Notes under the pieces: generated by a model | Seen by the model: only the letters and a program-made list of their open reading frames with translations | What the model was told of the DNA's origin: nothing | Database searches by the model: none | NCBI GenBank assembly: GCA_950106755.1 | Contig: OX467092.1 | Span: 27,356,582-27,420,581 of the forward strand | Length of the DNA stretch: 64,000 nt | Direction of reading: 5' to 3' | Source: Climacium dendroides | Lineage: Eukaryota; Streptophyta; Bryopsida; Hypnales; Climaciaceae | Translations under genes and position numbers: made by a program | In this document: positions 13,215 through 48,899 of the stretch, piece after piece | Layout: the number at the start of each line of letters is the position of its first letter | Numbering within the stretch: position 1 is the first letter of the stretch

Positions 13215-13216
13215 CA
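13204..13216 (+). repeat. Region containing the target duplication of the OUTER element, left copy
   Basis: CACTAAAGGCCCA here is repeated exactly at 48899-48911. By alignment with the INNER ends, the OUTER element starts at CAACGAAGCTAG (13215). That leaves a true duplication of about 9-10 bp (CTAAAGGCC or ACTAAAGGCC). The extra identical bases make the exact boundary ambiguous. Confidence 0.75.
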
Positions 13217-13290
13217 ACGAAGCTAGTATACGAGCGTAAAGCGGGAGCGTAGAGCGTAGAGCATGGAATTGGAGCGTAGAGCATGTATAT
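13215..13290 (+). repeat. OUTER left terminal inverted repeat and GAGC subterminal repeats
   Basis: CAACGAAGCTAG is followed by repeated GAGCG-type words (ACGAGCG, GGGAGCG, TAGAGCG, TAGAGCATGG, GGAGCG, TAGAGCATG). The right end has an equivalent cluster in inverted orientation (48850-48899). Such subterminal clusters are usual transposase binding sites, which is an inference here. Confidence 0.65.
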
Positions 13291-15601
13291 AGGGCGTTTT
13301 TCTGTACTTTTGTGTGATAAAAATTTATTTATTTATTTATTTTGTTGAATTTGGGTGTTCAACTTCCAAAGCCGACTATAAATTTTGGGCCTTTTTTCAT
13401 AAATCAGCATACTTTAGGGTAATAAAAAGGCAAGTCTCAAAATTAAGAGATTTAAAAAATTCTAACCTCAAAAGTTTATGGTGGACTAAAATCTGAATAT
13501 GTGTACAAAAATTTTAGGACCATTGACCACATGGAAGAAAGCGTTATATTGATTGAACTTAGAAGAATGTATTTGTTATTGTTGGTGTATAATTTCAACA
13601 ATGACATTTTCCCCCCCCTACGCTTGGATTATGACAAACCAATTTGTGTAGGGGATTGGTGTTTTAATGCAATATCAATTTATTGGTTCATGTGCCAAAG
13701 TTTAGTGGCTTGTCTTTCAAGTGGATATTGAGATTGTCTCACTATCCACTACCCAAAACAATGAAATTGAATTTTTGTAACACCCACCAATAACCTCAAA
13801 TTTTTGGGTTGTTAAATATAGTATTTTAGTTCCCCCCCTCCTCCCCTTCTATAATTTTGAAGTCGGGGTGAGGGTAACATTTGATATGGGATGTATCCAT
13901 ATCCGTACTTCATACCTCGTATTTTGTATCTATATTGTATCATATTTATATTGCATTTGAACTATATTTTGTATCTCAATTGTGTACCATATTATATTTC
14001 TATTGTATTTGAACTATATCTTGTATCTCATATCCAGACTGTATCTATATTATATCGTATCTATCCCTATATAGCATCCCTACCCGTATCCAGATCAACA
14101 GCATGGGAAGGAGAAAGGAGTTTGTTTTCTTTAAAGATTGGCATTTCAATTTCCGAGACTGAAGTGGGGAGAAGAGATGGAGGAATAAGAAGGTTCTTTT
14201 TTTTCCAGGGGATAGTTAGGGTATAGGGCATTTTGCCAAAGTTGCCCAAGAAGATAGACGCCTCACTGTTATACATGTTATGGCGGGCAATTCATTGGGA
14301 ATATTTTCAAATCAACCAAATAGATGACTTCTTTTACATTTCATGCAAAAATCCATTGAACATTTAAAGAAAAAGGTGTTCATGGTTATGTATCCCAAAT
14401 TGAATGAACTTGTGAATGAAGTATGTCTTGCAGACGTTTAGACTAGGGTTGCTTTGGAGTTATAGGGTTTAGAACATGATAACTTTATGTTCGTCCCCCT
14501 ATGACCGTGAAAATGGACCTATCACCGTGGACCCAAGACAGGAGACCCTAAGTCTATAGCAAAAAGAGTATTGAGGGTGTGAACCCATAACTGTGTTATA
14601 AAGAACCAGGACATAACCTTTCACCGTATTTCTTTTCCTAAAGGTTGTGAAATCCAAGCATTGCTTGTGAACACAATTTCGTTCACAAAATTTTAATTGG
14701 GTGGCAACTGTATTAGGAACCATTTTTTTTCCCTTGAAGTTCTGGAAGGCAAAAACCACTAGTGAACACAAATTCATTCACGAATTTAAATGGGGATAAA
14801 CTTCATCACTCACCATATTTTTTTTTCTATAGCTTGTGAAAGCCAAGCACCAGCAATAAACAAAAATTCATTCACAAATTTTAATTGGGGGGGGAACTCC
14901 ATCACTCGCCATTTCATCTCAAATACAAAGTTGCCTGAATACAAGGTGCACATAACATAATTAATCTTGAACAAAATTCCGGAGGATCGTTGGGAATATA
15001 ATATGCCACACATTTACGGCCAATGTCTATTCCTCGACCGGTCCACTCGGAATGATGGTTCATTGAACATGCCAGCTTTTATAGTGAGTCCAGCGAGTAA
15101 TGCCAATCGTTATGGGACAAGTGAAGACTAAGAAGTGACCTCTGAACATGTATTGTCGAACGTAGGAATAGAACCCCGAGAACAGTGGTCGACAAATGTT
15201 CCCCATTTTCAGCTCTCATCAATACGGTATGCTCACGTATTAGCATGGTTGGAGACATCATATGCCATGGAAAGTATTACAAAGAGAAGTATGCATGAAA
15301 TGGATTCAAGAGTGAAAATGGAAATGGAAATCATATGAAAAAAATTGTTTCAACTCATTTCAACCAATCTAAACAACCCTGTAAGAATATTTTATATTCA
15401 GAGATACAAACAAATCATACTAGAGTGTAGTGTGGGCAATCACGCATGATAGTACAACATGCAATGGACAAATGGCAATTGAAATGAAGTAGTGGCCCTT
15501 TTAGTCTCACTACAATTCTTACATGAAACAAGTTTGGAGCACATCATCCAAAACCACATTGCAGTATGCTGGCGCATACTGTCATGAAGTACAGCTATGT
15601 A
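13291..15601. other. OUTER left noncoding arm
   Basis: No gene recognised. It holds a low-complexity TATC/TATT/TGTATC tract (about 13890-14090), three diverged copies of a segment ending TTCACAAAATTTTAATTGGG (about 14650-14705, 14755-14791, 14829-14890), and two copies of the 14-mer motif CCTATNACCGTGRA (14498, 14518) that recurs at both ends of INNER. Confidence 0.5.
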
Positions 15602-16655
15602 CTAATTGGGTTTCAACTTCAAGATACCACTCTGAAGTATGCGTTTTACTTCGTTAAAGCTAAAGCTTGGAGTATGAATAAAAAGATCTACTTCTGCATC
15701 CAATTGGCAAACTCCAGTGAACAAAAAATACAAGTGCTTGCAATTAGCCCATTGTCCTCTTTTTCCTAGAGCCTTTGTCGACATCTCCTTGAAATACGGG
15801 CAAGTGCATTCAGGAAATGCACTTACAGTGATCATGTAATGTTCAGTGCTTGGTGGTGTACCTGAGTCTAGTGCAACGATGCATCCAAAGCCTGGATGCG
15901 GTACCATAGTAACTTCACGAACCACTGCCTTCATTGTGAGTACGGAGGCACAATTGTTAGCTTGCTTTGTTGTAGGTGCTTTTGGATTCCTCCGAATCTT
16001 CTTTCTTGACTGTGTACTGGGGTGTTCTGTGGGTGACTCTGGAACATGAAGTCCCAAAATATCTGGTGGCAAATCATGATTTCCAAATAGCCTACGAGGA
16101 GAAATTTCAAGACGCTGCAGAAGACAGAACCCTGCATTTTGAAGGTCTAGTATCTCTTTGGGCGTAAGATTGGTTCCAACTTTCACTGGCCAAATGTCTG
16201 GTACTTCTGGTTTTGATAAAACCCATTTCCGCCGGGAACCTTTGACACAACGCGATATATCATCATTGCAAAAAAAGAATTGCATACTCTCAATCCTATT
16301 TTTCTTGTAGTTATCCATGCTGCCAGTGTATGTAGGTGCAGCTGTTGCCCTATTGCCTTACACTATCTTTGCAACACACTTTCTCTGCGTAATGGCCTGC
16401 AATGCAAAACATGCTTTTGAGGATGTCTTAGGCAAGCGGGCAATATGCCATCGACACTCATCACAATCAGTTTCTTGGACGGTCCGCACTTGAGAGGCTA
16501 CCTTAGTAGAAGGAGTTGACCTTGTCTTGGGTGACTTCAGCAAATCCGGATAATCTTCATGCGTCACAGGCTGTGGTTCTTCAGAAATCCGATCCAAGGA
16601 AATGACTAGTGTGAGGGTAGGGGTTGCCCTCTTTCCAACACGGGGGCGGGAGAAA
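15602..16655 (-). pseudogene. Transposase B, C-terminal part with SWIM zinc finger (split gene, part 2)
   Basis: This is the 3' part of the OUTER transposase, separated from 32433-35191 by the INNER insertion. If the INNER element and one CGGGAGAAA are removed, the frame reads straight through (KVNFS|RPRVGKR), matching copy A (KVNFSQPRVQRR). It contains CDECRWHIARLP, FFFCNDDISRCVKGS, and the SWIM signature C-x-C-xn-C-x-H as ECTCPYFKEM...ANCKHLYFLF, then FIHTPSFSFNEVK and a TAG/TAA-type end near 15602. One further lesion is an in-frame TAA directly after CVAKIV (about 16358), where copy A has an Ala/Lys. SWIM domains bind DNA or protein and are typical of MULE transposases. Confidence 0.75.
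16647..16655 (+). repeat. Target-site duplication of INNER, left copy (CGGGAGAAA)
   Basis: This 9-bp sequence is repeated exactly at 32433-32441. It lies in the coding sequence of transposase B. A 9-bp duplication is the usual length for Mutator-like elements. Confidence 0.9.
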
Positions 16656-16740
16656 CAGCGGTGCTAGATTGTGAGCTTGCGAGCACGAGCCTGTGAGCTG
16701 TAAGTAGGGTTATGTGAGCAGTAAGCAAGATTATGTGAGC
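16656..16740 (+). repeat. INNER left terminal inverted repeat and GTGAGC subterminal repeats
   Basis: CAGCGGTGCTAG is followed by seven GAGC words (TGTGAGC, GCGAGC, ACGAGC, TGTGAGC, TGTGAGC and so on) within 85 bp. The right end (32352-32432) has a matching inverted cluster. Confidence 0.75.
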
Positions 16741-16840
16741 ATTGACACCAAAAATTATTATTTTTTTGGCAACAAATAAAAAATATTTCTAAAAATAAAA
16801 TTTGTAATTTATTTTATTATATTTTAAGTAAATCAAATCA

Positions 16841-16882
16841 CCTATTACCGTGGAACAATGAATGAGGACCCATTATCGTGGA
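16841..16882 (+). repeat. Two copies of 14-mer subterminal motif CCTATNACCRTGGA (INNER left)
   Basis: CCTATTACCGTGGA at 16841-16854 and CCCATTATCGTGGA at 16869-16882. Matching copies lie inverted at the right end (32247-32260, 32305-32318) and direct in the OUTER left arm (14498-14511, 14518-14531). Confidence 0.6.
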
Positions 16883-17155
16883 AACTAGGACTGTAGACCT
16901 ATAATTTTAGCTAACGTACAGTTTTTGGAGAATTTTTGGGTTCCATTAGTTTTTAAAATGTCAAAAGAATATATAATAGAAAAAAATAATTCAAGTACAG
17001 TAAATTCAAATGGAAAGTGAAAATAGGGTATATTAAATATGTTGGCAAATACAATATTCGGCCAATTGAAAATAAATACTCCTTCACCTACATATTTAAC
17101 TACAGTCTAAACTCTTTCACTCTCAAATGTCAAGTATTGAAACACTTTGTGGCTT

Positions 17156-20100
17156 CTAGACACGTTCAAGATTCTCAGTCGAAGTCTTGATTATACCAGC
17201 CCTAATGAGAAGAAGCTTCACTTCATTGAAACTGAAGCTTGGAGAATGTATGAACTTATCATCTATAGGATTCATTTTGCAAAAATAACGAAATAAGTAG
17301 TAAAGGTGCTTGCAATTGACATACTGATGGCGGCCCCAATTGCTGAAACAGCCATGTCTACAAAATTGGGACAAGTACACTCGGAGTACATGCCAAGTGT
17401 GATTCTATAAACCTTCTGTGTGGGCTCTGTTCCAGATTGAAGGGAGATTATGGCTCCAATCCGGGAAAGGGGAGCATGGTTACTCCCAAAATCATTCCTT
17501 TAACATTACCAGCACTCTCCCAATTATTGTGATGCTCTGTAGTCGGAGCGTTTGCAATACGTCGAATCGCCTTGCTCCTTCGGGTTGATGGATATGTATC
17601 CGCATTCACAGGGCTAGGTTGATCGTAATAGACTGCTGTGAAAACATTTGACATTGCAAATAAACGACGAGGTGACATAGGAGGTCGTTCTTGGAGTTGA
17701 AAGCCGGCTTCTTGCAGTAGTAGGGTTTCTTGGCGGGTTAAGCTGGTATTAGTTAGGATAGGCCAGACGTCTAGTACTTGAGGCCAGTCAATTACCCAAG
17801 CTCGTTTAGAGCCTCGTACACATCGTTCAATATCATCAGAACAAAACCAAAAGTCAGTGACGATCTCCTTGTTTCCACCATATTGTTTCTTGCGACCACG
17901 ATACGTTGGAGCTGGAGTACTTTTAGAACCCTTAGCTATTTTGGCAACACAACAGATATTCGTACCTCTCTGTTGGGCATGACATTTGCAGCTAGATTTA
18001 TGGGATAGTCTGGCAATATGCCACTATGAAATGTCACAATCACTTTCCATTGTAGTTGTGACATGTGGTGTAGGTGTAGAGGAAGCTGCCATGCCAAGTT
18101 CATTGCAGAGAACATCAGGTGTAGAAGTAGATCGCCTTTGCACTCTTGGCTGAGAGAAGTTGACCTTGTCTGAACAATGAGAATCACCATCAGAACCAAT
18201 AGGGACATCAAGCTTGCGTTTACTACTGCCAAACACCTCTTCGCCTTCCAAATGTGGAATATGGGTTCCAACGTCACTGAGGCAAGGGAGACCATTTATC
18301 GCCTCTGCAATCTTCTTTGGGTCCCCGCTGCGTCTCGCGCCTCTTAATTTCAACTCCTCTTTTGATGGCCCCGACCTTGATGTTGTGCCGTTTAAGAAAG
18401 CTCGATAATTTGTCATCTACATGAAGGCTCGAATGCAATCATCACAGGTGGCAGCAAACAAATCATTACCTCGATTACCCGATTGTTGCAACCATCTATT
18501 ATGAACTGTTTCGGATAAGTTGCAGGATGGCATGTCTGCCATCTCTTCGAGATTCAAATCCTGGAGGAAATAGAATGTGCATTCAAAGTCAAAAAGCAAT
18601 CCCACAACAAATTAATGACGCACTTTCAATACAAGCTAACCACCATAAACTTCATTTGATTGGTAGGTAAATTCCCACCTCAGCGCCGAGGCGAGAATTA
18701 GACCTCGTTCCTGAGGGTCACATCACTTACTCTATATACAAATCAGAATTTCATCTTTCCTTGATAGTTCTTTACGCAAGAAAAAAAAACGAAGTTCACC
18801 TTTGGAGAAGGCAATATAAAATGTAAGTGAACTTGAACGGTATATATAATACAAAAAATAAGGACTGATGAAAATACCATTTGCATGAAGCCACCCCATT
18901 GGCGATATCGGAAGTGCCAGAACACAAGCCACAATTCCAATTTACGCAAACCATCTTCGGAGGTTGCTCCGGAGGAAAGCCACCAAGAACGAATCACTAG
19001 ATACCGCATCTCCGCTTCCTCCATAGTCTTGGAATCTTTATATTGCTTGCAAAGACGAGTATGTTGGTGTTGTAAATCTGGTTTGATGAGCTTTTGTGTA
19101 TGGCGATGCAGTGATGTACTCCAATGTAACAAACAAGTTCGCTCACGGTTCACCATCTCTATTTTGGAATCCCCCGAACCATATACGATGCGAACAGCAT
19201 TCCAATTGGCTTGTGCACTATCAGCCATGAAGCCCTTGAAGTTCATATTTGATATACCATTCCGTTTCATGACATCATTTAATAACCTCCACATAATAGT
19301 TTGAATCTCGGTGTCCTTAGATTGCATGTCACAGACAGCAATTGTCATCACCTTTCTACAATTAGTGTCATAAACGTGGCACGCCATGGTTGTCCAATCC
19401 TTCACACGCTTGACGTGGTCGAACATGAGCCATGCATTTTCCAAGTCTCCACCCGGTTGCATGCGCCTTACCAAATCCACTCCACTACCAGGTCCTTCTA
19501 CCAACATTTTGAATAAGTATACCTTCTCCTTTCCTTGTCTAGGGAACACACTATCATGAATGTATTCGAACTTCAAATTCCATTTCATATTCATGATGCT
19601 ATCTATGACCCCATTTTTCCCAGTGCTACGAAACGAAGTAATAACGTTCCGGATATTAGATGAACTTAGTCTCTAGAACCTATCCATAACATCCTTTAAC
19701 GATTTTCCTTGCAACATCTCCATAGGGCCTTCACCATTGTGTATAAGGTGGTTGTCTAGAAATTGCTTACTTGCTGCCAAGGCAATGGCTAAGTTGGTTG
19801 CAGTCGGAGTTCTGGCCACCTCACATACAATGAGACCTGAAATAGTATCTATAGCCTCTCTACATGTTCCAGAAGCTACAGGATGCATATGATTACCTAA
19901 GTGAATGCACACTTGGGTCATGAAAGTAGTATCACTGTGGATGTAATAGATTCTAGCATCACAAGTACTAATACAATCAGGTGAACTCTTGCATATCTTG
20001 CACAAAAGACATGAATCCTTCGGAGGATTAGTACCAACATAGAATGGGGTGGGAGTATAACCACACCACTCTGTCTCATTGGGCTTCGAGAATCGCTTCA

Positions 20101-21037
20101 AATAGTCACACTCAGAATTATTACAGATGAGATGGCCTGCACAAGAGGATTTTCTAAACTTCAAACCATCTTCATTGTGGATATTGGATGTCATGGTCCG
20201 ACACCAAGCATGACCATCGTATTTTTTATCCATCCCTTGTAGATTTCCACCAGAAGATGATGAAGACGAGACACGAAGGGAAGGCAACTCAAATATCAAA
20301 TCCCCATTAAAGTCGACCGGCAGATACTGCACTTTGTGGTGGACTAAGGAATTGTAGTTCAAAGTAGCAATTTTGTTCCTAGACTTACGAATGGTGGCAA
20401 GTTTACGCAAGCAACCAACAATACTAACCGAGGCTGTACTATTTGGATATGTTGGCGAGCGAGAATGCGTAGACAAAGAAGGACTACTTGCTAGCGTTTG
20501 GTATATACCGGAAGATGTCTTGAAGACATCATTAGGGACTCTAACAGGCACAGATGCTTGAATATTTTGCTGGCTCGGAGACTCTCCTTCAGATTCACTA
20601 GAGAGATCTATAATGGGGCCATTGAATTCTTGTTTTACACGCATAAGTGGAATAGGTGTACTAGCATTTAAAACATGATCACGATCCGGAGAAATACTAC
20701 TGGTATGTCGAGCAGGAGGCATATTCATAGTAGAGGGGTCTGACTGGCGAGGTAATATTTGAATAGTAGCATTGAGAACAGGAGACAGCAATCCATAAGC
20801 TCTGTGTCGACCTTGCCGAAGGTGCCACACATGATCGGTTTGGAATTCTAATTTTAACATAGGTATATACTTCTTCAAGCGCCCATCCTCAGACATGACT
20901 TCTTCTTCAACATATATACTAGATTCGACAAAACCAAATCGCACATGAAGAAGGTGTAAAGACAATACAGCATATCCTTCGGGCCCAAGAGGAAGAACTA
21001 GTGGAATCTCATGGCCATCCGCTCGAATGGAGGCCAT
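17156..21037 (-). pseudogene. Transposase A: MULE-like DDE transposase with zinc-binding N-terminus and SWIM domain (INNER)
   Basis: Two exons. Exon 1 is 21037-18878 (720 codons, start MASIRADGHE, chosen because copy B has MATVRANGER at the same place) and ends in a GT donor. Exon 2 runs from 18560 (after CCTCCAG) to 17156. Order: a variable N-terminus; a Cys/His cluster (SSCAGHLICNNSECDYL, CKICKSSPDC, CIHLGNHMHP) recalling WRKY/FAR1-type zinc fingers; the catalytic core with Asp in LMFDHVKRVKDW, Asp in FKGFMADSAQANWNAV and the C-x2-H in RTCLLHW; then ECTCPNF...NCKHLYYLF, the SWIM signature. Lesions are TAG near 19680, TAG near 18415, TAG near 18026, and frameshifts near 17462 and 17335. It would cut and join element ends in the nucleus; this copy cannot make the full protein. 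Confidence 0.8.
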
Positions 21038-21064
21038 TGAGTGAAAAAGAAAGCACAACAACAA

Positions 21065-22600
21065 TGAGACGCTTACAAGAGGTAGGCAGTAGAGATTAGA
21101 GATGGGTTGAATGAATTTGAACTTCTATTTAATATATGAATATGTTTTATTTAAATATTATTTTAAATTAAAATCGTTGAGAGAGAGCCGTATCTTCGAG
21201 CACACTCATAAACTCAAGTGTAATATAATTGAAGTAATAAGATTTCATTGTTATAGATCTTGGATCCATTAAGATTTTGCAAATATTATGTATATGCTGT
21301 TGTTAATAACTCCCACTCTTGTCCTTATAGGAAGTCTTGTAACTTAAATTTCAACTAATCTCAACGTATACATTCACTAATGACTCATTTAAGAGGGACA
21401 TTAAAACGGCTACTTGGTGGACATACATTAATTTATTAAAAGCATAAAAAAGATTTAGAAAGCCCAAACATTCATCATGAATTAGGAGACATCCATTTCA
21501 AATTGTAGAGGTTATCTACCATATCTATAAAATCTAAATGTATTGGATACACAATAGATTTCAAACAATAAGTTTTTCTATACTCTTTGCCGTTATGGAG
21601 TATTTTATAGATAGGATCTGACAAATATTTAGAGATAGTAGTTTACCGATTAGTGTAGCAAACTTTCAAATTTCAAATTTGAATACCAACCGAAAAGATG
21701 TTTGGATTCCCTATAAGATGATGTAAAGATATAAGGTTTAGCCATTCTTGTGAAAGCATTACGTAGAAGATTTTGGTGTTTAGGTCATGCGTTAGATTGA
21801 GTGACTAGTGCTAATTAGAATGTTAACTTCATTTTTTGCTCCTACTCCTACCCACTTTGTAGAAATCCTCTGTATTATGATCCGCTAGTCTCATGCGTGT
21901 TGAAAAGGATATAAGTGTGAGTAGTCCTCAATATAATTTGACAAAGCGGAGAAAGAGAAGAAAGCTTTTCTTTTCATCCCGTAAGGAGTTGCAACGGGCA
22001 CAGGCGGTACAAGACAATATTGGTTTAGGAAAAAAGGTAATACCTCCAAATCCCACTTGCATCTTCAATTATATCAAGAAAGATGTTTATGATAGAAATG
22101 AAAGAAGCTTACAGGAAGATTTGAACGTGAAGGTGAACCTGAAGGACTTATTCACTCAGGGATATTAGCCGATTTCAAGTGTAAGTTTATCACGGAATGC
22201 TTTTTATTTCAAATATTATATTCTAGAGAATAATTGCTTAGTATTCAGAAATCAACCTGTGCAGTGAAAATCTAGATTGTACCAAATGGCTAGATACGAA
22301 TTTGTAGGAATGTGCCTTACATTATGTAAGATATCAAAAATATTGAAAGTATAGCAAAGTATTCCTAGTTTCAAGAAACAAACTACAACAATTTAAATGC
22401 ATTATTTATGACATTTTATGTATTAACAAAAGAGGTTCATAAATAGGAAAGAAAATGAAGGTCGTAAGATTTTGTAATGCAACTTTTACCTTCCAATAAT
22501 AAACAAATAGCATTGCCTAATCTGAATGTACCTATCGCATAACACATACTGCTTGAATATAAACGGGAGCCTAACCTGCTTGAATATTAACGGGAATTTT
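21065..22600. other. AT-rich spacer between the divergent genes of INNER
   Basis: Apart from the small ORF at 21893-22168, nothing recognisable is seen. The divergent promoters would have to lie within 21.04-22.9 kb. Confidence 0.4.
21893..22168 (+). CDS. Small basic ORF, 91 codons, unknown
   Basis: ATG-initiated ORF with a basic cluster TKRRKRRK near the start that would serve as a nuclear localisation signal, then a mixed-charge tail. I do not recognise it and there is no counterpart in the OUTER element. It could be a chance ORF or a first exon. Confidence 0.25.
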   Translation: MRVEKDISVSSPQYNLTKRRKRRKLFFSSRKELQRAQAVQDNIGLGKKVIPPNPTCIFNYIKKDVYDRNERSLQEDLNVKVNLKDLFTQGY

Positions 22601-22923
22601 GCTATACTTGTACAAATACCATTTCAGTATGTACGGGAGAGTATACAGACGTAAAGAATCCCGCCTCTGGCTCGGAGCACGTCTGTCGGATTTACAGATA
22701 GTGGTGAATCTGCATTGCGGCACTTCAGCCTCATGCCAAAGTGAACTAGTTGTCGCTTTTCAATTTTGAGTCTGTGAGCTCCGATAGTGGGCAAGTCCCC
22801 GTTTGGCATCCTATTCGAAATTTGTTCATTGTGGTTGCCGCTCATTCACATTTCCACTTGCTGCGATTCTCTCAGACAGGAAATAACGTGGGGTTTAGGG
22901 TATCTGTGTAGGGTGACAAGACA

Positions 22924-23052
22924 ATGGCAAGAAGGCCAGCGACGAGGAGAGCGGCTCTTGGAGAGACAAGAGGCATTGTAGACGGAAGCGAAAGTAATGA
23001 AGACCCCGTACATGGAGATCACGTGGTCTCCAATCTCTCCACGGGACATCAG
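22924..23052 (+). CDS. Possible first coding exon of the INNER ParB-methyltransferase-like gene
   Basis: ATG at 22924 opens 43 codons beginning MARRPATRRAALGETRG and ending in CAG directly before a GT (23053), in phase 0. The first well-supported exon of the ParB-like gene starts at 27151, also in phase 0, after TTTTACAG, so the two could be spliced in frame across an intron that holds the 139-bp array. There is no transcript evidence and no counterpart found in OUTER, so this is a hypothesis. Confidence 0.3.
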
Positions 23053-23199
23053 GTTTGCAATTTCCTCCCACTCTTTTTAAGTCGACACGCATAAAATCTG
23101 ACCATTTTGTAGTGGCCGCAACAAGTAGTCAGGAATTCCGACTGGCGTAAACTGTCTGTCGTTCGAAGTTCATGGTGATATCTTGGTTTAGGGTTCATA

Positions 23200-25010
23200 A
23201 AAAATTTGTCCCTGTTCGGTGGACTTCAGTTGTCCGACCAAGATTTACGGTTTAGGGATTCAAAAAATTATGGGATCCAAAAGTCTTCCTCGGCGCCGAG
23301 GCAGTTCGGAGGGCCTCTTCAAGGTGAGTTTTACCGCCTTCAATTTGTCCCTGTTCGGTGGACTTCAGCTGTCCGACCAAGATTTACGGTTTAGGGATTC
23401 AAAAAATTATGGGATCCAAAAGTCTTCCTCGGCGCCGAGGCAGATTGGAGGGCCTCTTCAAGGTGAGTTTTACCGCCTTCAATTTGTCCCTGTTCAGTAG
23501 ACTTCAGCTGTCCGACCAAGATTCACGGTTTAGGGATTCAAAAAATTATGGGATCCAAAAGTCTTCCTCGGCGCCGAGGCAGATCGGAGGGCCTCTTCAA
23601 GGTGAGTTTTACCGCCTTCAATTTGTCCCTGTTCGGTAGACTTCAGCTGTCCGACCAGGATTCACGGTTTAGGGATTCAAAAAATTATGGAATCCAAAAG
23701 TCTTCCTCGGTGCCGAGGCAGATCGGAGGGCCTCTTCAAGGTGAGTTTTACTGCCTTCAATTTGTCCCTGTTCGGTGGACTTCAGCTGTCCGACCAAGAT
23801 TCACGGTTTAGGGATTCAAAAAATTATGGGATCCAAAAGTCTTCCTCGGCGCCGAGGCAGATTGGAGGGCCTCTTCAAGGTGAGTTTTACCGCCTTCAAT
23901 TTGTCCCTGTTCAGTAGACTTCAGCTGTCCGACCAAGATTCACGGTTTAGGGATTCAAAAAATTATGGGATCCAAAAGTCTTCCTCGGCGCCGAGGCAGA
24001 TCGGAGGGCCTCTTCAAGGTGAGTTTTACCGCCTTCAATTTGTCCCTGTTCGGTAGACTTCAGCTGTCCGACCAGGATTCACGGTTTAGGGATTCAAAAA
24101 ATTATGGGATCCAAAAGTCTTCCTCGGCGCCGAGGCAGATCGGAGGGCCTCTTCAAGGTGAGTTTTACCGCCTTCAATTTGTCCCTGTTCGGTAGACTTC
24201 AGCTGTCCGACCAGGATTCACGGTTTAGGGATTCAAAAAATTATGGAATCCAAAAGTCTTCCTCGGTGCCGAGGCAGATCGGAGGGCCTCTTCAAGGTGA
24301 GTTTTACTGCCTTCAATTTGTCCCTGTTCGGTGGACTTCAGCTGTCCGACCAAGATTCACGGTTTAGGGATTCAAAAAATTATGGGATCCAAAAGTCTTC
24401 CTCGGCGCCGAGGCAGATTGGAGGGCCTCTTCAAGGTGAGTTTTACCGCCTTCAATTTGTCCCTGTTCAGTAGACTTCAGCTGTCCGACCAAGATTCACG
24501 GTTTAGGGATTCAAAAAATTATGGGATCCAAAAGTCTTCCTCGGCGCCGAGGCAGATCGGAGGGCCTCTTCAAGGTGAGTTTTACCGCCTTCAATTTGTC
24601 CCTGTTCGGTAGACTTCAGCTGTCCGACCAGGATTCACGATTTAGGGATTCAAAAAATTATGGGATCCAAAAGTCTTCCTCGGCGCCGAGGCAGATCGGA
24701 GGGCCTCTTCAAGGTGAGTTTTACCGCCTTCAATTTGTCCCTGTTCGGTAGACTTCAGCTGTCCAACCAGGATTCACGGTTTAGGGATTCAAAAAATTAT
24801 GGGATCCAAAAGTCTTCCTCGGCGCCGAGGCAGTTCGGAGGGCCTCTTCAAAGTGAGTTTTACCGCCTTCAATTTGTCCCTGTTCGGTGGACTTCAGTAA
24901 ACCGACCAAGATTTACGGTCTAGTGTTTGAAAATACTATGGGATCCAGAAGTCTTCCTCGACGCCGAGGCAGTTCGGACGGCCTCATCAAGGTGAGTATT
25001 ACCGCCTTCA
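23200..25010 (+). repeat. 139-bp tandem array, about 13 monomers, each with a 14-bp palindrome
   Basis: Thirteen monomers repeat exactly every 139 bp. Each contains CCTCGGCGCCGAGG, a perfect palindrome, at 23288, 23427, 23566 and so on; two units read GGTGCC and the last CGACGCC at the centre. Variants recur every four monomers (556 bp): the units starting near 23762-24179 and near 24318-24596 have the same order, showing higher-order duplication. The edges are more diverged. Since 139 is not a multiple of 3, the array gives a ladder of overlapping ORFs with the same peptides; these are not treated as genes. Each monomer also has an ATG-initiated 18-codon run ending in AAG|GTGAGT and an upstream CTTCAG. 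Confidence 0.9.
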
Positions 25011-25303
25011 GTTTGTAGGAAGATTCCTGTCGATTCCTGTCTAATTATATCAAAGACCTTGTTCGTTGTAGTGCCTAGACAAGTTCTTGTCCTTTTGCAT
25101 GGAATTTCAAGTGTAACATCGAAGCTTGTAGTTCATGTGAAGCACTGTTACATATAGCTTTCTTTTTTGTGAAGATTGTCAATTGCTGTTCATAATATCA
25201 CAGATCAATAGCTAGCAATGCCTGTTGAAACCATTCTCTGACTGCTATGGGCTTTTTCTAGAGCTTATTGAGTTTCTGTTTTTTTCTTCGAATTGCAGCT
25301 GAA

Positions 25304-32345: not shown

Positions 32346-32351
32346 ATGTAC

Positions 32352-35191: not shown

Positions 35192-35206
35192 TCGATTGTG
35201 CTCCAT

Positions 35207-36896: not shown

Positions 36897-37093
36897 AGGG
36901 GGACTGTAGCCGGCCGCAGGCACACTTATCCTCTTTCTTTTGTTCTTCCGCCGACGTATTCCGTTTTCCTTGCTTCGTTAGAATTCCGGTAGACTGAGGG
37001 ACTGTGTGAGTTGCGATCGTGCAGGGGTTACCGGAGTGACAGTTGTGAGCAGAGATTTAGGGAGAGATTGTGTAAGGATTGATCGTGAGCACA

Positions 37094-39196
37094 ATGGCTT
37101 CTAGGGTAAGCCGGTGGAAGTTGAAGGACATGCCTGAGGACTCAGAGGACGAGGCGCCGGCACTTGTACCTCGACCGAAGACCATCCCGATGATGAAGGT
37201 GGTTCCGGAGGTTCCGACGGAGGAGGACCGGCTGGCACACCTACGGGAGCATCTCCGCAACATGGGGTGTGACGGACTCCTAGAAGTGCCGTAGGGAATC
37301 CAAGAGGAGAGCCTGGTTTCAAACATACTTCGTCCGGAAATTGGTATCTTGGATACCACCATTCGGGCGAAATGAGACCTGTGGACGGTGAACACTTGGC
37401 GGGCCGTCTACAAGTTCCGGGAGGCGCTGGACAAGGTCATGGAGAAGAATCAGGAGGTGATGGAGGGAGAGTTCCGGGCGCCCGCCAATCCGAAGGAAGG
37501 TAACCAGGTTTCCGACCTGGTGAATCCGGAGTACCGGGATGTGGTAGCGTTTCTCAACCCTATCCTCCATCCCACCAAGCCGCGGCGAGTAGTAGCAAAG
37601 GTAGCCTCCACCATCTTGGGGAGCCTCTAGGGAAAGATGATGATGGACTGGGCAGCCATCATCCACGAGCTAGTCAGAGACTTAGTGCGTGCCCTTCGGT
37701 CCAAAAAGAAGAGCTAGAGTCCTCTTCCGGCATATTTGTCTCATTTGTACGCCCACCACTCTCTGCTCAAGGCGAATGAAGAGAGTGCGTACCAGGACCT
37801 AGTCCAACTACAGTAGTACGGAGGAGAGGAGCCCTCGCCTCGAGACGGACCGGACGATGAGGACACTGAAGAAGAGGAGCCGGTCTCTCCGCTAAAGAAG
37901 AGGAAAAGGCGGAATAGGACGCCGCCGGTAAGTCCGTCAGAGGAGCCTCCTACACCGGAACCACAGGAAGAGGTTCAGGAGGTAAAGACAGAAACTGGAC
38001 CTATTCCGAAGGGAGTCCAACCATCCTTGCAACTGGTTGGGCCGATACGACCGCACACCGTCGCCACTCAGGCTGAGGCCGGACCCTCCCGGACCCGGAT
38101 GATAGAGGTGGAGGAGAGGGATTGGACAACCATGCGATTGGGAGGGTCGCCCCTAGAAGACATCCAAGAGATGGCTCAGCATTTGGTGTGGCGGGCAGAC
38201 GATCTCTTCCAGATCTGCGAGAACTATGATGGAGCCCTCAAACGAGTGTGTTGGAAGATGGCGCTAACCGACCGGAACGCCATTTTCCGAAGGACGGATG
38301 CATTGGTGGTAGTGGAGCAACAAAACAACCTCCTCATAGCAGAACAGAAGAATTTGGTAACAGAGCTGGGGGCGTTGCGCGTAGAAAACCGGACGTTGCG
38401 AGACCAAGTCCGAAACTCGGAATCCCGCTGTGTGGATTTAGAGAGCACCATCCGCACCGCTAAGGAGACAGCCCGGCTCACAGAAGAAGCTCATTGCCGG
38501 CAGATAGCGGCCTTGTGCGAAAGTGTAGTTCAGCTTCGGAGCTCTCTAGAGGTCCCGACAGACTATATCAACAAGGCTCGGCTATTTGAAACTAACCTCG
38601 ATGCAGCCGCCAGCTCAAGCCGGGTTCCTATTGTCAAATGCTTACTGGAGCAGGCAAGACGAATGGATACATCCCGGGCCGCGATGAGGGAGATGCTGGA
38701 GTACATTATGTCCACGGAGTCGGATCCGGCACCTCAATCTTCCCCGTCAGCGCAGACTTTGGTGGTTCCAGAAAGTAGCGATCCGAAACGTATGGTTACG
38801 GAGGTCTCACCGGTGGTCCCGGTAAATCCGGAACTTTCACCACCAGCTGGAAGACCAGAAGGAGTGGACTGGGGAGCAGTGGTACCTCCGGGAAGTGAAG
38901 ACCTGCTGCCGGTGACTCCGACCATTGACCTGACGAGTGCTTCTCCGGAAGTTCACATCGGACGGATGGTGCAATCTTCTCCGCGTCATAAGAAGACTCA
39001 GAAGGATGCGAGAGGGTGTTCGGACACTCAGATAATTGGGACTAGGAGTGTAGACAGGGACACCAGCATTGTGGAAATCCCAAGATGGGGCCAAAGGGGT
39101 CCGAATCTGTTTTCTCCAAAAGGTAGCCGGAAAGAAGTAAAGTTGGATCTTCTGAAGGACTATGTTCCTCCTAAAGATCCAGATTCAAAAGAATAG
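37094..39196 (+). pseudogene. Gag-like protein of E2, N-terminal half broken, coiled-coil half open
   Basis: Homologous to the E1 protein, from ATG at 37094 (MASRVSRWKLKDMPEDSEDE) to TAG at 39196. Stops visible against E1 and E3 are TAG at 37292 (E1 TGG), TGA near 37374, TAG at 37628 (E1 CAG), TAG near 37716 and TAG near 37815 (E1 CAA). From 38027 to the end the frame is open for 389 codons, covering the coiled coil (LVWRADDLFQICENYDGALK to LEQARRMDTS) and a Pro/Ser tail with IDLTSASPE. No enzymatic domain is visible. Confidence 0.6.
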
Positions 39197-40299
39197 TATA
39201 CAATAGTGTAGTATAGCGGCAATATCGGAGTCCGACCGTCAAAGCCGGAAAAACAGGATCTGGAATCTTCCGGAAATCTAGCAGACCAGTAGGAATGCTT
39301 TGTAGGATTTTTAGGATGACGTTAGTCTTAGTATAAGTAGGACTTTTAATGTCCTTTCTGGGCATTCACAACCATCTCATAGTTTCAGCATTGTACCTTT
39401 TTCTGAGCTTAAATCTAAAGTGTGTTGGAGTATCTAATCTCTTATCTTTCTTGTGTACGGTATATGTTTGTGAGAGGTGTAAGTCCGTTCTTGCGTTTCC
39501 AGGACTGAGAACTCACCTTGTGTGGCAAGAGTCGATGTTGTGAGAGTATCTAGATGTATTAACTTGAGGGGGAGATCAATCGGATGGTTCCGGCAGTAAG
39601 GTTAGGGTAGTACTGCTCGGATGCCGGTATAGCCTGCGTGTAGGATATAGCCCTAGGGGAAAAGGGGTATCTGAGAGGCTGCTAGCAAACTTCCGTGTAC
39701 GGAGGTATTGCCGGACGTGCCCGAATTCCGGATTGCCGAAATTCCACGTAGAACAGAGTTAAGCCCTGGCACAAGCCCAAGAAAGTACAGGAGAAATCAG
39801 CCGATCGACAGGAGGCTCAGTGTTCGGTTAAAAGTTAGAATGTCGTTGTAGTTCTTGACCGTCCCTATGTGACCTAATCTGGAAGAGCTTCCGGATTTGT
39901 GAGGCGACGGAACAGGAGGACACTTCCGGTCCATGAAGAGTTAGGTTGTTGTTAGTATTAGAAAGAGAGACAGAGAGAGTGAAAGAGAGCGTGTTTCTGG
40001 ACACAGTAAGCATCCGGACGGTGGATCTAGCCACTCGTCATCCAAACCCAGGGATCCCGGAAGGGACACTGAAACGGTTTCCGGATCCTTCCGGAACCCA
40101 CCAGGCACTAGTATCCGGACCAGACCGAAAGTCCGGACTAAGCCGACGGAGAGAAAAGTGAGTGCTTAGACCGGGATAGCCTATGAAACTGTAATCCACA
40201 AGTCCTCGTGGGAACGATTCCGGAGCGGTTTACTCTAAGTAGGCCTTTGGTGTGAATTAAGGGCTAATTGGAGGAATACTGGTCCGACTAATCGCTACA

Positions 40300-40990
40300 G
40301 TGGTCCTGTTCGTGGTCATGTCGTGGTCGTGGTCTTCGTGCTCATCTGGTTGCATCCGGGGGACCCTCCCGAGGAGCCTCTCGGCCCCGAGAGGGGTTCG
40401 GGAGGGGAGGGGGGCATGGCTCGTTTCCCCGTCGTGGTCCTGTGCGCGGTCTCGTCGTGGTCCTGCTCGTAGTCTCGTCGTGGTCCTATTCGTGGTCATG
40501 TCGTGGTCGTGGTCTTCGTGCTCATCTGGTTGCATCCGGGGGACCCCTCGAGGAGCCTCTCGGCCTCGAGAGGGGTTCGGGAGGGGAGGGGGGCATGGCT
40601 CGTTTCCTCGTCGTGGTCCTGCTCGTGGTCTTGTTGTGGTCCTACTCGTGGTCTCGTCGTGGTTTTGTTCGTGGTCTTGTCGTGGTTGTAGTCTTCGTGC
40701 TCATTTGGTTGCATCCGGGGGACCCCCCCGAGGAGCCTCTCGGCCCCGAGAGGGGTTCGGAAGGGGAGGGGGGCATGGCTCGTTTCCCCGTCGTGGTCCT
40801 GCTCGTGGTCTCGTCGTGGTCTTGCTCGTGGTCTTGTTTGTGGTCCTGTTCGTGGTCATGTCATGGTCGTGGTCTTCGTGCTCATCTGGTTGCATCCGGG
40901 GGACCCCCCCGAGGAGCCTCTCGGCCCCGAGAGGGGTTCGGGAGGGGAGGGGGGCATGGCTCGTTTCCCCATCGTGCTCATCTGGTTTCA
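40300..40990 (+). repeat. 180-bp tandem array with palindrome, about 3.8 copies (OUTER)
   Basis: The landmark TTCGTGCTCATCTGGTTGCA falls at 40335, 40515, 40694 and 40875, a period of about 180 bp. Each unit combines GTGGTC minisatellite with GAGGAGCCTCTCGGCCCCGA and GGGAGGGGAGGGGGGC. The inverted repeat CCTCTCGG-CC-CCGAGAGG sits at 40377, 40556 (with CT), 40736 and 40917. ORFs running through it are repeat-derived and not annotated. Confidence 0.85.
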
Positions 40991-41688: not shown

Positions 41689-44600
41689 ATGAATGCTGAG
41701 ACCGGAGACACGCCTCCCAAGTCCACAGCTTCATCGCAACTGGAGCCCCAACCAGAAAAGCAAATATCCCCCGAGGCTGACATGAATAACGTGGGAGAAG
41801 ATTGCATACATGGATGGCAGGATGACGCTATGGAAGATGAGATTCGACAATCTCAAAGGCTTGACACAGTGGCAATCATTTCAAGCTTGAGGTTGACAAA
41901 ATCGGAGCACTCACGTTGGCGCATTCCACTCTGCAGGTTGGTTCCGATGCCAATGGTTTGTCCAACCCTCGAATGCGACTTGACAATGTTGGAGAACCAA
42001 TTCAGCAAGGGGTACGAGGAGGGGGCCAGGGTGTTCTATGTGTCTATTGTGGACGAGAGTAGTGAGACATCTGTCTTCTCCGAGGAGGAGAAAGCTACTT
42101 GGGGGCCGATTTGGAATTATGTGAATGACAAGTTCAACGTTCAGTTGCAGTCGATCCCTCAACTCCAGCATCTGGTGGACTGCAAGTTTTTCGTCTGTGA
42201 TGGAAACCACAAACGAATAGCGTGGATGAATTACATTCAGCAATGCCATGCAACCAATCTCGACTGGCATATCACTGTGGACTCCATCATTTTGGACACA
42301 AGGAATCGCATAGGCGTGGCAATGCAAGCCATGCATGACATCAATAAGTGAGACGTCTTTTTCCTTTCTATTTGATTTACCATCATAGTCTTTTAGATAT
42401 CATCATGCAGTGATCACTTGAATTGCTTAATCGTTACTCTAATTGGATTTTAATCTTCCATGGATTGGCAGGTAGACGGAAAACTCCCATATCAAAACAA
42501 ACCTTGTTTACACGTTGTATAGGGTGCAGAAGTACGGTCTAATGGATGTGGAGAAATTCAATGAGCTTCTCAGTCCAGAGGAAGTGAGGGCGTGCCAACA
42601 ATCAGCACGGAAGACGTGGTACAAAATGCCTTTGGAGGTTTTCACCTCTTTCATTTTTAAGGTATGACTGAAAATCATTATCATATATTTCTTTCATTTT
42701 ATTCCAACTATTTATCCTTGAGGTATTGGTCATTCTTAATGGACACTTTTTGCTTGTCTTCTTGCAGCAAGACATCGCCATTGCGACTGATGCTGCTGTA
42801 CGCAAGTACCATGAGGATACTCCCAAGGACGAAGTTTCCAAGGAGGGAGTAGCAACCGCAATGCGTACAGCTATCAAAGCTGAGACGGATAGGCTTTACA
42901 AGAAGCTATCCAAATTTGTTGCGGTAGCCTCTCTGCATCTTGGGTCAGATTGGCTAAAGGAGGTACAACACATGACTCATATTTCCCTTACGACTTAGCC
43001 GGTTCATTGCTTGCATCCTCTGTCGATTTTAACTTCTCTTTCATCACAGATTGAGCGACATTGGACCCTTTTTGCCGCACCTGAATTCACCTTGGAGAAA
43101 TTACAATTGATAGCGACCACCAATGTCCCACCGTCATTCAAGGTGAAGTGGTTAAGGTGGATGAACTTGTCCCCTGCCTCTCGAGAGGCACGGAGACTTC
43201 CGCCTCGCATCGTGAATGAAGAAAAGCTGACGATTTTTCTTACTAAAGCGGCTTGGTATGCCGGGGTATGTTCCATCACAATGCTTCCTTGTTTGCCCTA
43301 CAATGACAAGAGTTTGACGTCAATACCCTACTCTTCATATGCATTCACTGGTAGTTATTAGTTGCCTTGTCATTTCTCTTGATGGATGACATTAGCTTCA
43401 CTTGCATTTGTGCAGCTTGAGGAGGTAGCGATTGAAATGTTTGAAGTCATCATGCGCTCGGATAATATTTCTATTGACTGGAGCGTCGGCGGGGAACCGG
43501 AGAAATTGGTAGACTATTTGGAGGGGTGGAGGATGAAGCTATGAGATCATGCCTATACGGGGATGTTCAAGGGCACGGATGCCTTCAAGAAATCAGATTC
43601 TTTCAAGGACTTTAGGGGATCTATGCTTGCAGTTAAGCGGGTCATTTACAGGTAATTGAATGCACAGCTATCCACTTAGGTGCAATGTCAATCCCAATGT
43701 GGACATGGGGTAGGGGATTCAACCTACTCCCTTCTGATTGAGCTTTAATTATGGTTTATTTATACTTAGGCATTGGTGATCATTTTGGAAGGACCAAACC
43801 CTACATTAGTTTCAATATGAAGTTACACTTATTTTTGTCTTCTAAACAACCTTGTATAGTAGCTTCCCTTTGTACATACATTAATATATCTCCCGAGCTC
43901 CCTAGGCTCATATTATGAATGTGGAGACTGGTTTTGATTTTCTTAAATTCAAACTTGACCCGAATGCACAGGTATTTCAAGTTTGAGCTCTACGGGAAGA
44001 AGGCTATGGCAAAGGCCAATTTGCCACCCTTCCTCACTACATAGTTAGACAGATCATCAGCGGATTGTATGTTTTCTTCTACGCAATTGAAGAACTGGAC
44101 AAGCTCGCACTTACAAGCGTGTCCGTGGTACCTTGAGTGCAATTTCGGAACCACTCCTCCGGAAGAGCAAGCTCTCTTCCTCAAACTCAAAGAGAGCGCT
44201 CCCGTAGAGCCCGAGTTTGATGAGTTTGCCGACTTAGACCTGCAAGCCCGGGAACGTGCTCTCAGACGACGTGAGGTTTCTGATAAGAAGAAGGCGGAGA
44301 GATGGGAAGAGGCTGCTAAGAAGACCGAGGACATCAAGAACAAAAGATTGGCGGCCCAAGCGGAGAAAGACAAGGAGAAGGCCAAGAAGAAGGGTACCAA
44401 GAGGAAAGCTGAGTCACCGGTGCAAGAACCTGCTAATAGCACAGCGGACATCGTAGAGGGCTCTTCAGGTTTCTCTCTCACGCAAGAACGTTTAGTACAT
44501 GGACTGACACCGACAAATCAGAATCTGGACCTAGTCCCGGACATCGATGAGTGCATTTTGAACTTGTCACTAGATGCCTTGCCAAGCAATCCGGATGCCT

Positions 44601-46160
44601 ACAACCGCGTATTAGCTTTTCTAGCCATGGTATAGACTCACCCTTGATTCCTCTCCTCATTTTTTCTGTCCAATCATTAGGTGCCTACAGGTAATGGATA
44701 AGTTTGCTTGTTCAATTTTGATGCCTACTGACCCTATGCTTCTGTCTTTATCTATGTCATGTAATACTCTTCAAGCATATGTATTGATGTATTCTAAACT
44801 CGTTTTTGTAGCATTCCGCTGACAAGGACCGGCATTTCAATGGAGCATTGAGTACACAATCAGCTGTGGACTTGATGTTTGTCGATGTACCCGAGGGGTT
44901 GCATGTTCCAACTATCTCCGCCCCCCCTGGACGTATTCCAAAGTGGAATGAGTTCCACGAACAATGGCTGGTACCTATATTTGACTTTGCGGAACAATAC
45001 CTGCACGATACTGGAGCTCTCATTGTCATGTATCCAGCCCCCTCAAAGTAGCACCTCAGCCACCTCCGCAGATGCTGTGAAGAATACAAGTTCAAAATAC
45101 TTCTAACTTGGTTCAGGATGAACCATCTTCACTTAACATCACCGGCGGATCCTACAAAGACGGTACTTCACTAGGACACTCTCTTCAGTATATTTGCATG
45201 TCTTCCATGTTGTTCTACATATGGAGTCTCACCAAATTGGGTTTGTTTTTCAGACCATGCGATTTGCTATATCTCTTGTGGTTCGGCAATGGGGGCCAAG
45301 GATGGAGTCTCACTTCCCATTTCAGTTCGTTCCTTCTCATGAAGCCGTTGGGGTCAATGTCACACGAGATGACATATTACAAAACTTCTGCAACAGAGAG
45401 GATGTATCCATGAATGGGAACCGGCCTTGGCGTGGACCTCGTGAGAAGGCAAGGCAATTCATGTAGATGCTAGTGGAGGCATGTTCTCAGCCAGGGGATG
45501 TTGTTGTGGATTGCACTGCAGCAACAGGTGAGTCATGATACACTGTTGAAATTTTTGTGGCAAACTTTTTGATTAATTTTGTAAATCTCGTTCATCATTT
45601 TGAAACATTCATATTTTGTACAGGTGCATGCATTCAAGCTTGCCGTGCAACACGTCGGCATATTTTAGCGTTTGAGGATGTCAAGGCTATTTTTGATGCC
45701 CTCATTGCCCCTGCTATGCGTGCTAGCGTTGTTAATCAGCCCAATCCGCCTCAAAATTCTGGTCCTATTGATCTTGAAGAGGATGACGTACCTGTTCAAC
45801 GTGTCGTGAGGACATCACGATTCAGTAAGTAAGTTTTGAATTATTGATGTTGATTTTTTGTATTTGCGGAATACCTTAGTCCTTTGATCTAACATTTCTT
45901 CTACTGGATGTTCTAGGCCAACCCAAGATGTGAGAGCTGTCCCGTTCTTTGCAAACCGCAATTTCTTTCCTAGTCTTCCTAAACCATATCAATTACCGGT
46001 TTATGCTGAGGCAATTTCTAGGGATTTAGTTGCCCTTAATCCTAGGCCAACATCTAGAGCACGATCGGTAGATCCCAGAGTTCTCGAACTTGTAGATGAT
46101 CGTGCTGGACACTCTGATTCACAGACCTCAAATAGTGACGGCAGTTCAGCATCAGCATAG
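41689..46160 (+). pseudogene. ParB-like / beta-class DNA-methyltransferase-like fusion gene, OUTER copy
   Basis: Ten exons: 41689-42347, 42472-42661, 42768-42962, 43050-43265, 43416-43651, 43972-44629, 44812-45162, 45254-45527, 45624-45828 and 45917-46160, giving 1,076 codons. All introns are GT-AG, and exons 2-5 have exactly the same lengths as in INNER (190, 195, 216, 236). The ParB-like domain covers about residues 78-205 with FFVCDGNHKRIAW (DGNH 171-174). A Lys/Glu-rich region with GTKRKAES lies in exon 6. Motif-IV position: DLMFVDVPEG (about 743-747 for DVPEG). Motif-I position: PGDVVVDCTAATG (about 921-927), preceded by REKARQFM, which fits the usual KP-x-xLL helix. Stops: TAG 42473, TGA about 43543, TAG about 44042, TAG 45049 and TAG about 45464. 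Five stops make it a clear pseudogene. Start ATG at 41689 is a guess; an upstream exon is possible. Confidence 0.75.
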
Positions 46161-47879: not shown

Positions 47880-48140
47880 GTATGAGAGGGGCAAAGGAGG
47901 CTACGGAAGGAATGAAGAAGGGAGGGGAGGGCAAGAGGGGAAGGGAGGGGAGGGGAGGAGAAGGGAGGGGAAGGGAGGGGAAGGAAGGGGAAGGGAGGGA
48001 GAAAGGAGGGGAAGGGAGGGAGAAAGGAGGGGAAGGGGGGAGGGGAGGAGAAAAGAAGGGAGGAGAAGGGGAAGGCAAGGAGGTAGGGGAGGGGAGGGGA
48101 AAAGAGGCGAGGAGAATGGAGGGGAAGGGAGAAAGGAGGG
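47880..48140 (+). repeat. Purine-rich GGGAGGGGAA-type microsatellite
   Basis: About 260 bp almost wholly of G and A with GGGAGG, GGGAAGG and GGAGAAAG words. It creates a Gly/Glu/Arg ORF on one strand that is not a gene. G-quadruplex or triplex formation is possible. Confidence 0.85.
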
Positions 48141-48369
48141 CTACTACCAACAATGAAATCAATGGTTCACCACTTTTCTCCAAGATTGCTGAAGATATCT
48201 CTTGTCAATTGTCTCATGTCATGATTCTTGACCCTATAAATTTCTTACCTTTTCTACACAGTTCAAAGCTATTTAGTATTATATTGTATTGTTCAATGGT
48301 AAAGAGCGCTCTTCTATATTGTTTTGTACTGTTCTCCAGAGCTTCACGTCGTTCCACTATATTCAATTC

Positions 48370-48660
48370 ATATTTTCATCCTCATTCATCCATTGTTTTT
48401 CATCCACATTCATTTAATGTTTTTCATCCACATTCATTTAATGTTTTTCATCCACATTCATTTAATGTTTTCATCCACATTCATTTAATGTTTTTCATCC
48501 ACATTCATTTAATGTTTTTCATCCTCATTCATCCAATGATTTTCATCCACATTCATCCAATGTTTTCATCCACATTCATTTAATGTTTTCCATCCTCATT
48601 CATCTAACGTGTTTCATCTATTTTTTCATCTACATTCATCCATATTTTTTATCCATCCTT
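48370..48660 (+). repeat. 24-25 bp minisatellite (TTTTCATCCACATTCATTTAAT)
   Basis: About ten tandem copies with small variants, e.g. CATCCTCATTCATCCAATG. Periodic peptides in the ORFs here (HPHSFNVF) simply reflect the 24-bp unit. Confidence 0.85.
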
Positions 48661-48849
48661 ACCTCAAACTTAATCCAACCACATTCGTTCATTTTCCCTA
48701 AACCCTTAAAATTGCTTTCATTTGTCTCGATTAGGCAATCATGATGAACTTTCATCCTTTTTTCAACTAATGTTGTCCTTTTCCCATCCTATTTTTCACA
48801 TCTTTTTTCTTTTTTCTTACAACATTATTGCTCCCCATTCACTAATCCC

Positions 48850-48899
48850 CGCTTCCCGCTCGCCGCTCGTTGCTCCCCGCTCGCATACCAGCATTCCCC
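48850..48899 (-). repeat. OUTER right terminal inverted repeat and GAGC repeats
   Basis: Read on the minus strand: GGGAATGCTGGTATGCGAGC, then GGGGAGC, ACGAGC, GGCGAGC and GGGAAGC. It mirrors the left end at 13215-13290. Confidence 0.65.

Follow-up and report, generated by a model that had tools for sequence, protein, structure and literature searches.

Does a methyltransferase-like gene that lies beside a transposase-like gene belong to the transposon that holds it and, if so, what might its product do there? The question is raised by a 64-kb stretch of the Climacium dendroides genome (contig OX467092.1), hereafter called the window, which holds two diverged copies, one nested in the other, of a single family of two-gene DNA transposons. 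The inner element is called A and the outer one B. Each carries a transposase-like gene and an accessory gene whose product is related by sequence to N6/N4 methyltransferases.

Two nested copies of one transposon family

The outer element extends over about 13215-48900 and the inner one over 16656-32432. Both are flanked by a 9-bp target duplication, CTAAAGGCC for B and CGGGAGAAA for A (positions in Table 1). On the + strand of the window, each of these sequences is found only at the two places flanking its element; on the - strand, each has one copy, at 14 for CTAAAGGCC and at 29622 for CGGGAGAAA. For B, the two sides have 13 bp in common (CACTAAAGGCCCA), so that the duplication may measure 9 to 13 bp and each end of B is placed to within 4 bases; the right end given in an earlier note on this DNA, 48899, is inside this range. 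For A, the common stretch is 10 bp, which allows a duplication of 9 or 10 bp, and the symmetry of the ends (CAG...CTG) favours 9. A length of 9 bp is compatible with both elements and was used throughout.

The joined flanks of B aligned over the target, without gap, with two copies of a retroelement that lack the interruption, which gives the empty site. B itself lies within an older, reverse-oriented copy of the same retroelement. Element A was inserted in an exon of the B transposase gene: if one copy of the duplication is kept, the B frame reads through the junction (DKVNFSR joined to PRVGKRAT), and the copy A protein is gap-free at the point where B is interrupted (DKVNFSQPRVQRRST). The length of A is 15,777 bp. 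B spans 35,686 bp and, once A (15,777 + 9 bp) and a 3,697-bp retroelement in its spacer (TG...CA ends, 5-bp duplication GTGGT) are subtracted, measures 16,198 bp. The duplications, the matched empty site, the restored frame and the two lengths bear out what the earlier note had proposed, namely two nested elements of about 16 kb each after removal of later insertions.

Three related copies of the retroelement, with TG...CA ends, were seen in the window. They are located at about 7840-11521, at 36603-40299 (the GTGGT insertion in the B spacer) and at 13157-13214 plus 48910-52328, the last being the copy split by B. By eye they have gag-like reading frames, without Pfam match.

Ends of the elements were compared over their first 40 bases, and scored against 5,000 40-mers of the window. 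The left and right ends of A reached a score of 36, as did or exceeded only 2 of the 5,000, and those of B a score of 21, reached by 14 of them (a moderate match), whereas the pairs formed between A and B ends were weak (97, 600, 1,046 and 1,523 of 5,000 reached the same scores). Terminal inverted repeats are present in both elements; they are imperfect and about 20-40 bp long. Moreover, an array of GAGC in a single orientation starts at position 18-19 of all four ends, with 6, 6, 6 and 5 GAGC per 150 bp versus 0.41 expected, and none on the opposite strand. Four GAGC within 30 bp were found in the window at these four ends only (8 overlapping hits). Near the right end of B, at 47917-48618, there are also two simple arrays, made of a GGGAG-type and a 24-bp TTTTCATCCACATTCATTTAATGT-type repeat.

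In both elements, the left gene (- strand) and the right gene (+ strand) are co-linear and diverge from a central spacer. The transposase-like protein, of about 1,190 amino acids, is 48% identical between A and B, and the accessory protein, of about 1,085 amino acids, is 44% identical; each of the ten accessory-gene homology blocks in A has its counterpart in B, block edges being set from homology, not transcripts. A blastn comparison of A with B (E up to 0.01) gave seven matches, all overlapping coding blocks, of which three extend beyond the edge of a block, by 4 to 46 bp. At fourfold-degenerate codons specifying the same amino acid, the third base agreed in 55 of 232 cases (24%) for the transposase and in 46 of 173 (27%) for the accessory gene, which corresponds to chance. 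Agreement at codon positions 1, 2 and 3 was 60, 65 and 34% and 56, 66 and 34%.

Since the proteins are conserved while their synonymous sites agree at chance level, we infer that selection kept both of them over a long divergence, during which the synonymous sites became saturated. This selection on both proteins argues that the accessory gene belongs to the element. The earlier note had maintained that the same divergent gene pair is present in two diverged copies, and that the accessory gene is a part of the element and not a bystander; both claims are upheld by the protein identities and by the maintenance of the pair at synonymous saturation. Both copies are now broken by stops (transposase composites, 3 in A and 2 in B; accessory composites, 2 in A and 4 in B), and the A transposase also has two apparent frame shifts.

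The transposase-like and accessory proteins

Transposons of the MULE superfamily produce target duplications of 8-11 bp, usually 9, and their transposases have a DDE core with a CxxH between the second D and the E. In the alignment of the two transposase-like copies, D523, D589, a CxxH at 618-621 and E684 are conserved (assigned by eye). Inspection by eye also revealed, in both copies, a C-terminal CxC...CxH resembling SWIM and an N-terminal Cys/His cluster. Because of these motifs and of the 9-bp duplications, the transposase is likely MULE-like. Single exons gave only weak, unrelated matches in Pfam, the best match among solved structures had an E of 0.19, and a plasmid tblastn search with the core gave two records at E 0.9, taken as chance. 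Membership in the Sola superfamily, which makes 4-bp target duplications, was rejected, since neither element has a duplication shorter than 9 bp. The KDZ (Kyakuja-Dileera-Zisupton) group is marked by KDZ/CxC domain profiles; no Pfam match to these was found in the transposase, the presence of KDZ models in that library being unchecked.

The accessory protein is a relative of the N6/N4 methyltransferases by several sequence comparisons, as the earlier note had it. Pfam N6_N4_Mtase matched B with an E of 2.5e-4 and A with an E of 1.6e-3, neither match reaching the gathering score. Three PHROG methyltransferase families matched both copies and two more matched one copy, while the CcrM model of NCBIfam matched both, with a best E of 0.007 that is far below the cut-off. 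Among solved structures, DpnA was matched (E 0.0065); the matches to CcrM, MboIIA and DpnA are weak and lie in the motif I region. Comparison by hhalign with five phage methyltransferases gave a probability of 97.3% over 209 columns (local) and 98.6% over 240 columns (global), and with five further phage proteins, four of them with a Pfam ParB_N match, 72% and 90%, all of these being probabilities of single comparisons, not database E-values. The ten reference proteins were taken from 14 fetched phage loci (L006, L012, L013 and L014 were left out). The first set consists of five annotated tblastn matches; the five of the second set were chosen among 60 listed of 1,411 records, since only the C-terminal part matched. 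Scans of viral contigs for relatives yielded 120 and 100 pattern matches, of which none was confirmed, and two further scans were without exact match.

Active N6/N4 methyltransferases carry a catalytic (D/N/S)PP(Y/F/W) motif and an FxGxG motif for S-adenosylmethionine. In the local alignments with both reference sets, the DPPY (or DLPY) of the phage proteins sits on DIPEG/DVPEG, and the motif-I GSG sits on ATG. The usual catalytic motifs are altered in both accessory copies, motif IV to D[IV]PEG and motif I to DCT[VA]ATG; Y and GSG are present in all ten references, which were not drawn at random. Given that the altered motifs are common to copies 44% identical, the change probably predates the A/B split and is not a result of decay. 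The usual catalytic mechanism is unlikely to operate, and the protein is probably not a normal methylase. With these altered motifs, the earlier suggestion that the gene may serve to mark the DNA of its element becomes less likely.

The shared palindrome and possible roles of the accessory protein

Tandem arrays are present in both spacers; those of B, made of 23-bp repeats and of 180-bp units, are separated by the retroelement insertion. The two spacers have no exact 12-mer in common. The array units contain palindromes, CCTCGGCGCCGAGG in A (10 perfect copies) and CCTCTCGGCCCCGAGAGG in B (3 copies), with a common core, CTCGGNNCCGAG. Exact CTCGGNNCCGAG occurs 18 times in the 64 kb, 15 times in the A spacer (12 in the array and 3 between array and gene) and 3 times in the B spacer, and nowhere else. 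With one mismatch allowed, four more sites appeared, of which 24957 and 40559 are within arrays. A perfect 16-bp palindrome, TGCCTCTCGAGAGGCA, which resembles the B array palindrome, was seen inside the B accessory gene (43175-43190).

The significance of this sharing was estimated with Markov resamples, in which any palindrome with arms of 5 and a gap of up to 4 was counted, other motif types not being covered. An array unit sharing any such palindrome with an array unit was obtained in none of 8,000 resamples, and a shared palindrome with at least 4 sites in the array-collapsed spacer A in none of 800. The palindrome was noticed before testing, and some selection bias remains. The strength of the palindrome evidence rests on array placement and copy number.

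The reading that we tentatively favour, and that we would place a little short of probable, combines a MULE-like transposase acting on GAGC-rich ends with a probably non-catalytic methyltransferase relative, predicted to bind CTCGGNNCCGAG and thereby to keep both genes transcribed. In this scheme, the transposase would cleave at the GAGC-rich ends, and insertion of the element would create the 9-bp duplications. The accessory protein would recognise the CTCGGNNCCGAG palindromes of the spacer array and, once bound, might prevent host silencing from closing the divergent promoters, a role proposed by analogy with VANC of the VANDAL MULEs, whose target motifs likewise lie in non-coding tandem repeats. 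The chemistry of the transposase, the lost methylation activity, the binder of the palindrome and the anti-silencing role are the steps that we infer. The link between palindrome and protein is the weakest of them, as the binder could be a host factor or the transposase.

A number of results weigh against this reading, whose basis is two copies in one 64-kb window. Searched against Pfam at E up to 1, the two transposase composites matched no family, MULE and SWIM included, and with NCBIfam only radical-SAM models were obtained (E 0.036 and 0.9), which were taken as chance. The structure model of the transposase core was poor (mean predicted local distance difference test, pLDDT, 42.8), and the fold search made with it, empty at E up to 0.001, is uninformative. 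For the accessory protein, phage tblastn matches were weak (14 records, best E 0.06). ParB was given a probability under 1% in the hhalign profile comparison; the model of the presumed ParB exon was likewise poor (mean pLDDT 37.3), with a fold search empty at E up to 0.001 and uninformative. With ParB not detected, the DNA-binding part of the protein is putative. An active site in which E replaces Y could also act on another substrate. As for the palindrome, two one-mismatch sites are outside the spacers, at 18679 (between two A transposase blocks) and at 27359 (in the A accessory gene). In 7% of resamples, at least one palindrome was shared somewhere between the array-collapsed spacers by chance; when arms of 6 are required in place of 5, the real spacers have no palindrome in common.

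Two assignments of the earlier note are affected. Its MULE/SWIM transposase is plausible by the duplications and by the motifs seen by eye, and lacks a profile match to either family; we have named it MULE-like, and not a proven MULE member, because of the missing Pfam match. Its ParB part is without statistical support. The N-terminal DGNH[RK] of both accessory copies is ParB-like by eye alone, and in a search with a profile of five phage N-termini, accessory B scored -0.1 bits, a value reached by 188 of 726 reported shuffles. With the same profile, an unrelated segment of copy A scored higher (0.5) than the B N-terminus, and the N-terminus of copy A itself was unreported. A ParB relation of the accessory N-terminus is possible.

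Other explanations were considered. The palindromes and arrays may be promoter elements for a host factor, the accessory protein acting elsewhere. The location of the sites between two divergent genes would suit this somewhat unlikely explanation, whereas the absence of CTCGGNNCCGAG from the rest of the 64 kb speaks weakly against it. The accessory protein could also bind the DNA of the element and mark it as an active adenine or N4-cytosine methyltransferase, as proposed for its algal relatives, its altered motifs being still catalytic. Although the methyltransferase alignment spans 209 columns and includes both motif regions, E stands in place of the catalytic aromatic residue and ATG in place of the motif-I GSG in both copies of a protein that is constrained overall, which makes this doubtful. 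We consider it just as doubtful that the accessory protein cooperates with the transposase, for instance by holding the ends together, the palindromes being loading sites as parS is for ParB: the gene is in the same element under similar constraint, and CGAG, which forms the core of the palindrome half-site, occurs in some of the end repeats, but the palindromes lie between the genes, not at the ends, and no ParB match was found. Finally, that the pair consists of bystander host genes caught by chance, for which one may argue from there being two copies only, is highly improbable, because the pair, its order, orientation and block structure are kept in both copies at synonymous saturation.

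Surroundings and known systems

Positions of the features are collected in Table 1.

Table 1. Features of the inner (A) and outer (B) elements, by position in the window
Feature	Positions	Strand	Details
Duplication CTAAAGGCC, B left	13206-13214		shared stretch 13204-13216
B left end	13215-13297	+	GAGC array (18, 31, 38, 45, 58, 65)
B transposase-like gene, 3' part	15605-16645	-	SWIM-like CxC..CxH at 15722-15811
Duplication CGGGAGAAA, A left	16647-16655		shared stretch 16646-16655
A left end	16656-16741	+	GAGC array (18, 26, 32, 40, 61, 82)
A transposase-like gene	17186-21037	-	homology blocks 18884-21037, 17463-18566, 17335-17472, 17186-17332
A transposase D/D/CxxH/E motifs	19412-19426, 19211-19228, 19121-19135, 18929-18940	-	
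A spacer array	23203-25016	+	139 bp x 13.1 (96% matches); 12 units with exact CTCGGNNCCGAG, a further one with a single mismatch
Three more exact CTCGGNNCCGAG	26183-26837	+	26183, 26732, 26826; between A array and accessory gene
A accessory gene	27154-31453	+	ten homology blocks; DGNHR 27646-27660, DIPEG 29994-30008, DCTVATG 30730-30750
A right end	32362-32432	-	GAGC array
Duplication CGGGAGAAA, A right	32433-32441		
B transposase-like gene, 5' part	32433-35191	-	blocks 33089-35191 and 32433-32860
B transposase D/D/CxxH/E motifs	33617-33631, 33416-33433, 33326-33340, 33134-33145	-	
B spacer 23-bp tandem repeats	36451-36602	+	left of retroelement; without palindrome
Later retroelement in B spacer	36603-40299	+	TG...CA, GTGGT; not part of B
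B spacer array	40300-40976	+	180 bp x 3.8; CTCGGNNCCGAG exact at 40380, 40739, 40920; one mismatch 40559
B accessory gene	41689-46157	+	ten homology blocks; DGNHK 42199-42213, DVPEG 44884-44898, DCTAATG 45509-45529
B right end	48820-48900	-	GAGC array
Duplication CTAAAGGCC, B right	48901-48909		shared stretch 48899-48911

Outside the elements, a reading frame with an NLI-interacting-factor-like phosphatase domain (Pfam NIF, 3.1e-13) is found at 58187-58840. A long diverged inverted pair (73-74%), at 5813-6880 and 54513-55580, flanks the nested block and perhaps represents two copies of another repeat. Short-period arrays at 56791-57307 and 62748-62987 consist of 22-bp and 11-bp TGCAACTAG/GTTGCA-type repeats, with four 60-bp units. 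Rfam gave no match in the window.

Sola1-1_Ec32 of Ectocarpus belongs to Sola1, with 4-bp duplications, whereas A and B have duplications no shorter than 9 bp and a transposase with MULE-like features. For this element, a ParB-methyltransferase accessory protein is described in PMC12477816, where similar accessory proteins are said to be known from green and red algal transposons (citing Iyer 2011 and Petroll 2025). Like A and B, Sola1-1_Ec32 is a large DNA transposon (21.5 kb, versus about 16 kb here), and its accessory protein (1104 amino acids, versus about 1,100 here) is encoded on the strand opposite the transposase and has an N4/N6 methyltransferase domain; unlike here, a ParB domain is reported (PMC12477816). 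Of the features of this accessory class, A and B both have the C-terminal N6_N4 methyltransferase domain and the position inside a transposon, opposite the transposase.

The phage ParB-methyltransferase proteins L007, L008, L010 and L011 have a Pfam ParB_N match (below cut-off for L007) and a C-terminal N6_N4_Mtase domain that aligns with the accessory protein. In contrast to the latter, they are 384-422 amino acids long, with intact DPPY and GSG, and their ParB part is without match to it. CcrM, MboIIA and DpnA are weakly like the accessory protein in motif I, whereas both signature motifs are altered in the accessory protein.

To our knowledge, VANC is not a methyltransferase relative. According to PMC5735166, VANC proteins of VANDAL elements recognise motifs in non-coding tandem repeats, and DNA methylation is lost through their action. 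The VANDAL MULEs of Arabidopsis resemble A and B in carrying an accessory gene, which is anti-silencing there, and in the tandem repeats of their non-coding parts, which hold target motifs there and candidate palindromes here; anti-silencing is demonstrated in VANDAL and proposed here (PMC5735166).

The earlier note knew of no MULE with this accessory gene. The class is already in print for Sola1 and algal transposons; in open-licence papers, no description of a ParB-methyltransferase accessory gene in a MULE-like carrier was found. New in the present case are the MULE-like carrier with its 9-bp duplications, the alteration of the active site and the palindrome common to both copies. A broader conjecture, which we offer as rather unlikely, is that in an ancient lineage of eukaryotic transposons a DNA methyltransferase of bacterial type was converted into an activator that reads palindromes and is catalytically dead, with the CTCGGNNCCGAG arrays as its loading platform. 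Protein and array would have travelled together to synonymous saturation, and VANC-like anti-silencing would have evolved a second time, independently, in MULE-like elements.

For the ParB-methyltransferase accessory genes of algal transposons, it has been proposed that the product binds and modifies the DNA of its own element; the present family offers an old, constrained case with active-site motifs altered in both copies. With it, the accessory class would come to include a carrier with 9-bp duplications, and whether such a protein methylates its element or merely reads it is testable with one protein and one candidate 12-bp palindrome.

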